64,000 nt of DNA, taken from Bacteroidota bacterium. GTDB taxonomy: Bacteria; Bacteroidota; Bacteroidia; NS11-12g; UBA9320. Positions 17,547-55,722 of the stretch are shown here, in pieces. The position numbers and the translations under genes are program-made. How positions within the stretch are numbered: position 1 is the stretch's first letter; each line of letters starts with the position of its first letter. The notes under the pieces are model-generated. The model was given only the letters and a program-made list of their open reading frames with translations. It had not been told where the DNA came from and made no database searches. The stretch spans positions 124,001 to 188,000 of the forward strand of contig CANIKO010000006.1 of assembly GCA_947468275.1 (NCBI GenBank). The letters run 5' to 3'.

Positions 17547-17605
17547 TAAATTTAATTAGTTAAACCTTAGAGGTCTGTATTGCAATAAAATCATTTGCTT
17601 GCATT

Positions 17606-17662
17606 AGGGGCTGTCAGCCCCTATAACCCTGACCTTCTTTTTTGCTTGACAAAAAAAGAAGG
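17606..17662. repeat. Two adjacent inverted repeats upstream of repeat copy A
   Basis: The first is an 8-bp perfect stem (AGGGGCTG / CAGCCCCT) around a single base. The second is an 11-bp stem (CCTTCTTTTTT / AAAAAAGAAGG) with loop GCTTGAC. Similar A/T-rich palindromes are scattered between genes in many Bacteroidota; neither is placed like a terminator here. Confidence 0.65.
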
Positions 17663-17717
17663 CAAAAAGTCAATTTTATATTTAGAGAAAATATAGTCCG
17701 AATGGCATCAATCGAAT

Positions 17718-17848
17718 GGGTGCGGTTGGGATCCAACAAAGGACCGAACTGCAAAATTTTCAAAAGTAAATTTATACCTTACGGACGATTTATGTAAAAA
17801 TTTTGAAGTTGGTTTTGTTGGTGCCTTTTTTTGCTCCTTTTTTGGGCA
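17718..17848 (+). repeat. Dispersed 130-bp palindromic repeat, copy A
   Basis: Shares its two ends with copy B at 55548-55675. Both begin GGGTGCGGTTGGGATCCAAC and both end with GAAGTTGGTTTTGTTGGTGC, a pyrimidine tract and TTTTTTGGGCA. The middle 30 bases differ. The ends can pair: CCAACAAA with TTTGTTGG, AACT with AGTT, AAAATTTT with AAAATTTT, giving one long imperfect hairpin. It looks like a non-coding mobile repeat (MITE- or REP-like) or a structured RNA. Confidence 0.75.
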
Positions 17849-18110
17849 TGCAAACCGAGGAACGAGGTTCATGAACACCTATAAAAAATAAACAGCAAAT
17901 CAGTGAACTAAAAAAGGAGAGAGATGAAAAAGAACCAAAAAATCAAGACAAAAATATACTCCAACCGCACAATCTAACACACACCCGTATTTTTGTCAAC
18001 CCCACCGCACCCTAACCCGATAATTTTGTTGTTAAACAATATTTTTTTAACAGATCTTTAACTTTCCAAAAAAATCGCAAAACAAATATTTAAATTTTTT
18101 CTAAAGTATA

Positions 18111-18139
18111 ATAGCCCACGTTAATGAACCGTGGGCTAT
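18111..18139 (-). terminator. Hairpin after ricT, probable terminator
   Basis: ATAGCCCACG pairs perfectly with CGTGGGCTAT around a 9-base loop, 20 bases after the ricT stop. The following minus-strand bases TATACTTTAG are only weakly T-rich. Confidence 0.65.
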
Positions 18140-18159
18140 GTTTTATAGAGAAGTACTAA

Positions 18160-19644
18160 TTAATCCTTCTTTTCGGCAGTAGGATTGGGATTGTTGGTTG
18201 GATTTTCCGGTGGCCTGTTGGGGCGATTTGGATTATTAGGACGGGGTGGATTGTTATTATTTGGGTTTGGGTTTCTCGGCCTGTCGTTATTAAACTTAGG
18301 TTTTTGTTGGTTAGGATTATTTGGACGATTTGGCTGATTTGTATTTACAGGTCGTTCGTTATTGGGTCGGTTTGGATTATTTACGTTTGGATTATTAGGT
18401 CGGTTTGCACTAGGATTATTTGGGTTTGGATTTCTCGGCCTGTCGTTATTGGGTTTGTTTCTATTATCTGGTCGATTATTATTCCTATTATCAGGTCTGT
18501 TTCTATCTCTAAAATTTCGTTCGCCTTGTTTACGTTCCTTATTTTTATCCTCCATTCGGGTGATGCTTGAATCTTCAAGCATATCATCCACTTTATAGGA
18601 AGTTTTTGACATGATTTCGGCTCCCAACGGACGGTCTACCAAGGTTTCAGGAATTTCGCCCCTTTTATTTTTTTCAATAATTTCAGTTACTTTATCCGCC
18701 GGAATCGGAATCCAATCGCCAGGTTTATCTTGATAGGAAAACCACATCATTTTCTTCAAAATATCAATTTTTTGAAGATTAGCTGTTCCAATTTTTGTAT
18801 TAACTGTTACTTTTTCAGTTCCGGGAAACTGACCTAATGATTCCATATAGGTATCCAATTCATAATTCAAACAACACTTTAATCGACCACATTGACCTGA
18901 AAGTTTAAGCATGTTAATACTTAAATTTTGAAAACGGGCGGCTGAAATATTAACAATTTTATAATCAGTAAGCCAAGTGCTGCAACATAATTCTCTGCCG
19001 CAAGACCCAATACCTCCAAGGCGGCTAGCTTCTTCGCGGTAACTGATTTGACGCATTTCAATACGGGTCTTAAAATCCGTGGCATAGCGTTTTATCAGTT
19101 CTCTAAAATCAACCCGCTCTTCAGCAGTATAAAAGAAAATCACTTTTTTTCCGTCGGCCTGAAACTCAATATCACTCAATTTCATTTCCAATTTCAGTTC
19201 CAAAGCAATTGTTCTTGCTTTTTCAAGAGTTGAAGGTTCTTTAGCTTTAAAATCAGTATATTTTTCCTTGTCGGATTCAGTAGCTACCCGATATATTTTC
19301 TTAATATTCGGACTATTTTCTGTAAGTTCTGCCTTGCGAAGCTGAAGTCTTACTAATTCACCTGTTAACGACACATGGCCTATATCATGGCCTAGGTCAC
19401 TCTCCAATACTACGGCATCACCGGTATAAAGTTCAAGGTTATTTACATTTTTAAAAAACTCTTTTCTACTTCCTTTAAACCGTATTTCAATAATATCAAA
19501 GGGAGTATAATTTTCAGGTAAATCTATATCTTTAAACCAGTCGTAAGTATTTAATTTATTGCAACTTGAAGTGCCGCAGGATCCATTGCTTTTGCATCCT
19601 GAGGGACTACTGCCAGTTGTTGTTCCGCATGATCCGCATCCCAT
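18160..19644 (-). CDS. ricT: PSP1 domain protein RicT (YaaT) with Asn/Pro-rich tail
   Basis: 494 residues. The N-terminal 30 residues are rich in Gly, Ser and Cys (M-G-C-G-S-C-G). The conserved PSP1 C-terminal domain spans about 55-310 with the cysteine pairs G-S-C-G-R-E-L-C-C and G-Q-C-G-R-L-K-C-C that hold an Fe-S cluster in the B. subtilis RicAFT complex, which affects mRNA maturation by RNase Y. From about residue 365 to the end the chain is almost only Asn, Pro and Arg in short repeats. Neighbour holB lies upstream, as next to yaaT in Firmicutes. A -7 element TATCTTCG at 19684-19677 gives it its own promoter. No gldH follows, unlike in many Flavobacteria. Confidence 0.92.
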   Translation of the reverse strand: MGCGSCGTTTGSSPSGCKSNGSCGTSSCNKLNTYDWFKDIDLPENYTPFDIIEIRFKGSRKEFFKNVNNLELYTGDAVVLESDLGHDIGHVSLTGELVRLQLRKAELTENSPNIKKIYRVATESDKEKYTDFKAKEPSTLEKARTIALELKLEMKLSDIEFQADGKKVIFFYTAEERVDFRELIKRYATDFKTRIEMRQISYREEASRLGGIGSCGRELCCSTWLTDYKIVNISAARFQNLSINMLKLSGQCGRLKCCLNYELDTYMESLGQFPGTEKVTVNTKIGTANLQKIDILKKMMWFSYQDKPGDWIPIPADKVTEIIEKNKRGEIPETLVDRPLGAEIMSKTSYKVDDMLEDSSITRMEDKNKERKQGERNFRDRNRPDNRNNNRPDNRNKPNNDRPRNPNPNNPSANRPNNPNVNNPNRPNNERPVNTNQPNRPNNPNQQKPKFNNDRPRNPNPNNNNPPRPNNPNRPNRPPENPTNNPNPTAEKKD

Positions 19645-55547: not shown

Positions 55548-55675
55548 GGGTGCGGTTGGGATCCAACAAAAGAGCGAACTGGAAAATTTTCCTAAAATCA
55601 TTTTCCATAAATAGAGATTCTTGAAAATTTTGAAGTTGGTTTTGTTGGTGCCCTTTTTTGCTTCTTTTTTGGGCA
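55548..55675 (+). repeat. Dispersed 130-bp palindromic repeat, copy B
   Basis: Same orientation and same ends as copy A at 17718-17848. The inner pairing GAAAATTTTC / GAAAATTTT is stronger here. The final stem TGCCC / GGGCA is complete, where copy A has TGCC / GGCA. It lies between convergent genes, 100 bases after the esterase stop. The remaining spacer on either side shows no gene. Confidence 0.75.
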
Positions 55676-55722
55676 ATCAAAAAAGATGAGATAAAGATAT
55701 AAAACCTAAGTTATTTAAGGGA

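Follow-up and report, generated by a model that had tools for sequence, protein, structure and literature searches.

What kind of element is the repeat at positions 17718-17848 of the window, the 64,000-nucleotide stretch of a Bacteroidota genome analysed here? A sequence-only reading of this spacer had noted a partner at 55548-55675 and offered three identities: a MITE, a REP-like element or a structured RNA. Descriptions of bacterial MITEs and REPs usually present simple palindromes and guess at RNA roles from the energy of folding. The dispersed repeat considered here shows covariation between genera, has relatives in another family, carries a covarying pseudoknot and is under strong constraint at an orthologous site. 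On balance, we lean toward the view that it is a mobile structured-RNA element acting as RNA at gene 3' ends, with a U-A-U triplex, and kept for its closed 3' structure. Below, G000 denotes the window's own genome and g1 its genus (G004, G005 and so on being congeners), G013 represents another genus, and g14 is a genus in another family.

The two copies, A (17718-17848) and B (55548-55675), are 83% identical (E 1e-29), with the whole query aligned in one orientation. Their arms are conserved and their centres have diverged, which bears out the same-orientation repeat with conserved ends and a variable centre that had been described. On either strand, the two copies have a better fold than their shuffles (z -2.6 to -3.9). 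The sequence-only reading had also proposed a search of the genome and its relatives, and had named just two copies genome-wide with no compensating changes and no transcript as the result that would count against it. On the first two of these points the outcome is the opposite. The search found eight loci in G000 and copies in five of six congeners, and paired changes are present. The eight loci consist of seven near-complete copies and one right-half fragment. Over 147 genomes (own included), BLAST gave matches in the window's genome, the five congeners and one outgroup, counts that are lower bounds with five candidates scored per genome. The outgroup match (G127) was rejected, being by reading a piece of an Ala/Lys-rich repetitive gene. 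The congener G002 has no copy by BLAST or by the covariance models R1 and R2 described below, and the number of A copies per genome of the genus ranges from 0 to 13. An exact 22-base core was found as six stretches in three MAG assemblies among 84,980 species genomes, a collection that may omit records close to the window's own genome.

Where does the unit end? The right border had been placed at 17848, but beyond it come a T-run and a second stem, and the unit closes at 17919; a 58-bp insert splits this stem in copy A. Copy B, which has no inserts, closes at 55688, and the unit is about 140 bp long. It begins with a GGTGCGG-like leader, continues with a long hairpin (H1), in which an asymmetric internal loop is conserved and the apical loop is free to vary, and has an H-type pseudoknot on its 3' side. 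Here the final bases of H1 (stem S1) pair with the loop of a second stem (S2), the T-run bridges S1 to S2, and the inner half of S2 is T/A. The order 3' of the right arm is T6-7, a short stem strand, T6, GGGCAAGC, A6 and the complementary strand.

All parts of copy A lie on the plus strand. The 5' leader GGGTGCGGTTGG (17718-17729), whose GGTGCGG-like sequence is found again in related modules, is followed by the left arm of H1 (17730-17760) with the internal-loop core GACCGAAC; this core is GAGCGAAC in most g1 copies and G[AT]GCGAAC in G013. After the apical loop (17761-17796), which is variable in sequence, comes the right arm (17797-17825), the last bases of which, TGCC (17822-17825), form the 5' strand of S1. 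The T7G linker L1 (17826-17833) is the proposed third strand of a triple helix. Next are CTCCTTTTTT, the 5' strand of S2 (17834-17843), the outer pairs of which covary between copies, and GGCA, the 3' strand of S1 (17845-17848). The 58-bp hairpin-like insert, called M, occupies pseudoknot loop L3 (17852-17909, its border in the A-run uncertain by up to 3 bp), and AAAAAAGGAG, the 3' strand of S2 (17910-17919), ends the unit. Copy B (55548-55688, also plus strand) has its leader at 55548-55559, left arm at 55560-55591 and right arm at 55623-55653. Its S1 consists of TGCCC (55649-55653) and GGGCA (55671-55675), L1 starts at 55654, and S2 is formed by 55661-55670 and 55679-55688, with one outer pair mismatched.

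Is this fold maintained by paired changes? Among the 10 complete g1 copies, both sides have changed in 5 of 35 pairs (shuffled 2.2 +/- 0.8; 0 of 500), three of the five lying in S2; with copies that are related to one another, shuffle counts here and below are not strict probabilities. Further pair types within the genus are not unusual (7 versus 5.5 shuffled, 58 of 500). The S2 strands include CTCC/GGAG, CTTC/GAAG, CTTG/CAAG, TAAC/GTTA, TTTC/GAAA and TTAC/GTAA. All four outer S2 pairs are intact in 23 of the 28 parsed A copies, copy B (three pairs) being among the other 5; the S2 partner was taken as the best-scoring A-run within 75 bases, and pairing is thereby favored in copies with inserts. 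A double change that keeps the pair separates the G000 C2 copy from its G004 ortholog. The H1 arms, on the other hand, are nearly invariant in the genus, that is, conserved in sequence rather than covarying. Of 28 copies, 20 have an apical loop of 33-37 bases and the other 8 one of 69-72, and extra structure within it is not supported in these 28 (mean z -0.6; 2 of 28 beyond z -3).

Beyond the genus, covariance model R1 has matches in 7 of the 38 genomes of the family, including three full-length copies in G013 that BLAST had missed; their stems differ in sequence from those of g1, and the internal loop and leader persist. The covariance analysis that had been proposed at the outset was carried out on 17 copies (14 g1, 3 G013) in an alignment fitted to the covariance model. 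Both sides have changed in 20 of 35 pairs, against 8.0 +/- 2.0 in shuffles and 9 in the best slid control, and 47 cells were counted against 9.9 shuffled. A second model, R2, was run on 108 genomes of the order under stricter filters that make its counts lower bounds; at least 19 genomes, own genus included, have matches at E <= 1e-4. These comprise 6 g1 genomes, G013, 10 g14 genomes, and weak single matches in G008 and G080. The g14 genomes, although of another family, hold up to 9 copies each (best E 1e-18), with the same parts in the same order as copy A; these related units appear discrete by reading and lack the GTCGAACC transposon ends described below. The fold of a long hairpin plus pseudoknot is well supported. 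The structured-RNA proposal is thus borne out in part, by a strongly covarying fold that may act as RNA.

The pseudoknot was analysed in a larger sample. From 154 model matches, 119 were taken, the remainder being repeats of one place (L232 versus L267), antisense self-matches and the weakest matches. Ninety-four of the 119 could be parsed; the other 25 include 10 A copies with an L3 insert, three C-like copies with the same, decayed ends, and ends missed by the pattern. The g1 label in this sample includes L093 and one G008 row (L233). Because parsing demanded at least 4 bases in each of the T and A runs, the presence of the runs is given by construction; the pairing of S1 and the match in run length are not.

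In most types of each group, the bases just 5' of the T-run are complementary to the loop of S2. The pairing is TGCC(C) with (G)GGCA in A copies, GGGC with GCCC or GGTGCC with GGCACC in g14, and CTTGAT with ATCAAG or CTTGAC with GTCAAG in G013 and in the C-type modules (see below). At least four consecutive Watson-Crick pairs are possible in 27 of 40 distinct types (shuffled mean 9.2, maximum 19 in 10,000), the other 13 having fewer than four, and the mean run is 4.23, compared to 2.98 +/- 0.15 in shuffles. Sliding the window upstream abolishes the signal: the number of types with at least five pairs falls from 15 to 5, 2 and 0 at shifts of 0, 1, 2 and 3. The lengths of the T-run and A-run are also correlated (rho 0.46, p 1e-4, 63 distinct ends), with rho 0.65 in g14 and a non-significant 0.27 (p 0.14) in g1. 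The two runs differ by at most 1 in 60 of the 63 (shuffled 49.8 +/- 2.6), and exact equality is not enriched (21 versus 19.4). On this comparative evidence, the 3' end is a covarying H-type pseudoknot with stems S1 and S2.

What might the matched runs do? The H pseudoknot of the telomerase-RNA type, with its U-A-U triples, is reportedly the subject of a 2005 study by Theimer (cited in PMC5696562). We take it to have the same order of parts, namely S1, U-run, S2, S1', A-containing linker and A-run, with the U-run parallel to the A-run. In this comparison, the order S1, U-run, S2 (with its U part near the junction), S1', linker and A-run is that of a pseudoknot with U-A-U triples, and the repeat may be read by analogy as forming one. 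The differences are that the element here is bacterial and mobile and sits 3' of a long hairpin, and that its triple helix is only proposed. One G013 copy has the linker TTTTCTTT beside AAAAGAAA in S2, which would fit a C-G-C triple, in a single case. Triple-helix elements of the ENE type occur in eukaryotic and viral RNAs, including that of a plant retrotransposon, according to parts of one source (PMC12501189). The likeness is that the 3' region of a transposon RNA carries a U-rich structure for which a protective role is proposed, and the difference is that the ENE captures a poly(A) tail, whereas the A-run here is encoded and lies inside the pseudoknot.

If the element works as RNA, which strand is read, and from where? 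Mismatched H1 pairs are G-U more often than A-C, 97 to 40 at 90% clustering (54 to 12 in g14; 41 to 28 in g1, not significant), 64 to 24 at 80% and 23 to 13 at 70% (p 0.13), in copies that were selected and oriented with a strand-specific model. The excess of G-U favors a plus-strand RNA, most clearly in g14. Among the 29 A copies with ORFs on both sides (two further copies have no upstream ORF), 16 lie in convergent spacers and 1 in a divergent one, compared to 8 convergent and 9 divergent of 46 spacers in the window; these counts rest on crude ORF calls, with related loci counted separately. Within tandem spacers of the genus, the orientation of A does not follow that of the genes (8 antisense, 4 sense). 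There is a weak excess in g14, where 18 of the 26 copies with an upstream ORF share its orientation and 17 more have no such ORF. No clear sense-strand enrichment of Bacteroidota-type or sigma-70-type promoters was found in groups of 3, 31 and 47 copies, and in a group of 30 the signal was weak (TAnnTTTG 5 sense and 9 antisense, shuffled 1.8).

Could the repeats simply carry an ordinary intrinsic terminator, H1 plus the U-run stopping transcription between convergent genes and the rest being irrelevant? The stem is followed directly by 4-8 T residues, and convergent spacers are over-represented. However, a consensus terminator scan, covering loops of 3-8 only, found none at A or B, and by reading at least two copies already adjoin another hairpin terminator. 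Moreover, the sequence of the arms is conserved, although a terminator would have no need of this, and S2 and S1, which lie partly past the T-run, covary, so that the RNA must extend beyond that run. We consider this explanation improbable. A separate hairpin (ATAGCCCACG...CGTGGGCTAT) at 18110-18145, near the 3' end of the gene at 18160-19644, is likely an ordinary terminator beside copy A.

Another possibility is a genuine small RNA or riboregulator gene that is multicopy by chance, with transposon ends hitch-hiking. Its strong structure, sequence-conserved internal loop and strongly conserved arms are what such a gene would show. The copies scanned have no clear promoter, though, inserts interrupt copies often, and the genomes of one genus hold anywhere from none to 13 A copies. 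Nor does any one gene recur at most loci: ORFs near 45 loci fall into 18 similarity groups, of which the largest, an epimerase-like gene, accounts for five loci, at least 4 of them in one neighbourhood. We give a dedicated RNA gene very little credence. No Rfam family matches the window above its gathering threshold, and for five related loci the best score was 33.8 bits against a threshold of 110 (a plant miRNA hairpin). Candidate RNAs known from Bacteroidetes, in the part of Weinberg 2010 available to us (PMC2864571), include Flavo-1, Bacteroidales-1 and GUCCY-hairpin. These resemble the present element as predicted structured RNAs of the phylum; those with Rfam numbers are in the library that gave no match, and GUCCY-hairpin, which has none, lies outside the comparison.

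Constraint was judged from orthologous copies. Copy B and its G005 ortholog occupy the same spacer with the same neighbours. Over 95 positions they differ by no substitutions and a single 1-base indel; these positions are 34 from the leader and left arm (to GAACTG) and 61 from the right arm, T-run and S2 to the first base past the A-run. Divergence is 26% in the centre, 24.5% and 30% in the spacer and 19% in the adjacent gene, where the inner left stem is counted in the centre and the last S2' bases in the 30% spacer, both of which differ. The segment borders were set after viewing the sequences, and the clean test is one ortholog pair. Copy B and its ortholog share the variant GGGCAATC, which is not seen in the other listed g1 copies, making copying from paralogs unlikely for this pair. 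The C2/C15 pair (G000/G004) is alike throughout, with identical loops, and gives no contrast. The loop of copy A is closer to those of other G004 copies than to that of the G004 copy in the same spacer; orthology of copy A with that spacer-mate in G004 is therefore doubtful, and the pair was left out of the constraint claim.

Is the element mobile? The proposal of a MITE is borne out in part: MITE-like elements with terminal repeats, 6-bp target duplications and, for one of them, an empty site contain some of the A-type hairpins, but copy A lacks such ends. The carriers, non-autonomous elements of the window's genus, have GTCGAACC ends and 6-bp TAnnTA duplications and are bounded by GTCGAACCTCAAAAA...GAGGTTCGAC. 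Recognised ends flank at least 5 of the 31 listed A copies on both sides (L115, L116, L117, L123 and L126, with duplications matching at 6, 6, 4, 5 and 3 of 6 bases, respectively), and a sixth candidate, L073, has a doubtful right end. The end pattern TAGTCGAACCTCAAAAA / TTTTTGAGGTTCGACTA (up to 2 mismatches) occurs at 42 sites in the genus (G000 10, G004 19, G005 10, G006 2, G001 1, G002 0, G003 0), and the reversed pattern, as a control, at 3, 0, 2, 0, 2, 0 and 2 sites in the same genomes. Nine of 13 re-tested end sites have no module and, by reading, fall in ordinary genes as chance matches. For 20 pairs of ends (two sharing a left end), the duplication is perfect over 6 bp in 6 (shuffled mean 1.0, with 0 of 10,000 shuffles reaching 6) and matches at 5 or more of its 6 bases in 10 (shuffled mean 4.8, with 10 of 10,000 shuffles reaching 10); the perfect ones include TAACTA and TACTTA. 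The paired ends are 184-903 bp apart, and the longest internal ORF is 71 aa in 19 of them and 122 aa in L073. Reading of ORFs in the fetched stretches revealed no transposase gene between the 20 pairs of ends or beside the 9 module-free sites, and no autonomous element in those stretches; the family search for transposases covered Y1.

Some copies are absent from the corresponding site of a congener. An A-hairpin element of about 0.8 kb at G000 C1:74002 is absent from G005, where the flanks align within 7 bases, and copy B is absent from G004, where the aligned flanks are 133 bp apart versus 315. Copies also contain inserts: the left arm of H1 in 10 of 28 copies has inserts of 48-52 bp, which were taken out for the analysis, L3 carries inserts in copy A and others, and relatives of the M insert occur in other copies and modules. 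One ortholog pair (G000 C2 / G004 C15) has an insert in one member and not in the other. Judging from their positions, the left arm of H1 and L3 are places where the fold tolerates inserts. Two g14 copies (L268 and L271, G067 C34 and C58) have a common insert, around CTTAGCGGAGCGATCTCACGACCGGAGGGAGTAACTAACGC, in the left arm of H1, near the place used in g1. In G004, a 294-bp carrier element (L119, C11:5123-5417) with a perfect TATTTA duplication adjoins the S2 stem of an A hairpin and probably sits inside another carrier element. At L099 and L103 (G000 C4 and C22), the TAG of the transposon end coincides with or adjoins the neighbouring gene's stop codon.

Perhaps, then, the repeat is purely a DNA parasite, a MITE whose arms are kept complementary by a transposase or by replication-linked template switching on a DNA hairpin, with RNA playing no part. 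Terminal repeats, duplications, empty sites and apparent nesting (see below) all fit, as do the folding of H1 on both strands and the lack of a clear promoter in the copies scanned, and template switching between hairpin arms would, we presume, yield paired changes in both H1 and S2. This model does not predict S1, in which the 3' edge of H1 pairs with the loop of another stem, or the matching T and A runs, or the excess of G-U over A-C mismatches. Nor does it predict an old orthologous copy whose arms are unchanged next to a centre that has diverged, or units in another family that, by reading, look discrete without GTCGAACC ends. We regard it as unlikely, though the most serious of the competing models.

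The REP-like identity fares worse. A REP or BIME element mobilised by a RAYT, an IS200/IS605-like Y1 transposase, would be palindromic, intergenic and dispersed, as this repeat is, and the genome does contain six Y1-transposase matches, five of them above the family cut-off. Copy A does not match these loci beyond chance: A, C and M-type sequences align with them over only 15-30 bases at E 0.016 or worse, and no A-type palindromes lie within 1.5 kb either side of the six loci, where there are other palindromes, unrelated by reading. Furthermore, the unit is about 140 bp rather than the 20-40 bp of the REP definition, lacks a terminal GTAG or CGTC, and its carriers give 6-bp duplications. We find this origin barely credible. 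Five Y1 loci (L067-L071; G000 C1:166162, C9:104829, C1:253146, C7:111054 and C20:9250) have their transposase genes amid their own short palindromes, which by reading include GTCGCATAGCGAC, ACCCCGAAGGGGT and GAGTTTTTAACTCGT; the gene at C1:253146 has an in-frame TGA.

How does the element compare with known bacterial repeats? REP palindromes of the GTAG and CGTC families, as described in part of PMC3733652, are 20-40 bp long with a terminal tetranucleotide. That part records shared features, namely dispersal, complementary stem variants and a location mainly in unidirectional and convergent spacers; against these, the present unit has its greater length, two structural domains and no RAYT link. 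Prokaryotic MITEs in the available part of a review (PMC10969869) include QMITE2 of Coxiella and BOX, RUP and SPRITE of pneumococcus, and pneumococcal MITE-type elements are there reported to insert into one another. Common to those MITEs and the present repeats are short, non-coding units with terminal repeats, target duplications, AT-rich intergenic sites and predicted stem-loop transcripts. The difference is that here an internal unit covaries across genera and occurs also without terminal repeats, and that the T-run and A-run of its pseudoknot are similar in length; the word 'pseudoknot' is absent from that review. An integron attC site was considered in view of the conserved arms and varying loop; A copies are mostly single in ordinary spacers. 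No such element is described in those portions of the open-access literature that were covered, with GUCCY-hairpin (PMC2864571) outside the comparison.

Comparison of the copies thus establishes, at the level of sequence, a dispersed and partly transposon-borne element with a covarying hairpin and pseudoknot; we infer that it is transcribed, forms a triple helix and has a function. In the mobile structured-RNA model that we favor, the element would act as RNA produced mainly by read-through at gene 3' ends. Its U-run would occupy the S2 groove and form a U-A-U triple helix there, much like that of telomerase RNA, and transcripts could be protected or terminated by the closed 3' structure. Such a structure may make insertion at gene ends harmless or useful, and copies would be kept for that reason. 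A more specific version, argued by analogy and put forward tentatively as somewhat short of an even prospect, is a bacterial mobile element with an encoded triple-helix 3' end: the U-run would dock in the T/A stem and shield transcripts from 3' decay, and insertions would be tolerated or recruited as ready-made mRNA 3' ends. The element would represent a mobile family of structured RNA that is as yet undescribed and whose shape is better conserved than its sequence, and it would offer a way to test how mRNA 3' ends arise from selfish repeats. A genuine triple helix would mean that bacterial mobile DNA, too, contains a device known chiefly from telomerase and from eukaryotic viral and transposon RNAs.

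Finally, how did the spacer around copy A come about? It had been suggested that the left end of the repeat, recurring inverted as CCAACCGCAC at 17961-17970, marks a 250-bp unit with terminal inverted repeats. The inverted sequence (GTGCGGTTGG) belongs instead to a second hairpin module, of C-type, on the minus strand (17924-18020), which is cut short at the end of A and is intact in the G005 ortholog of the spacer, with no A alongside. The G004 spacer has A and no C-type module, and the G000 spacer has A, the cut-short module and a fragment of a third. Since the module occurs in G005 without A and A in G004 without the module, the spacer is not one 250-bp transposon, and that candidate was rejected. 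The third piece combines a 3' fragment from a further C-type module with the short palindrome TTAGGGGCTGTCAGCCCCTAT (17604-17673, minus strand). Copy A has no terminal repeats or duplication of its own around 17718-17919, by an end-pattern scan of the window region and by reading. The spacer is a mosaic of module pieces, and from its sequence looks to have been built up by nesting; more generally, units are found together in one spacer and abut truncated pieces of each other, copy A being an example, as nesting would produce. A spacer common to G000 C7, G004 C9 and G005 C17 (L143, L122, L150) has the A hairpin in one orientation in G000, in the other in G004, and half replaced in G005, and may be a recurrent insertion spot or have undergone an inversion. 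C-type modules also occur as back-to-back pairs (L130 in G000, L146 and L147 in G005, L165 in G004), their match starts separated by 15-21 bp and their pseudoknots facing outward. At L267 (G068 C7:35300-36900), four related modules lie head-to-tail with starts 335, 340 and 191 bp apart, two of the four having a different palindrome (ATCCCGATAGCAATCGGGAC) in the left arm.
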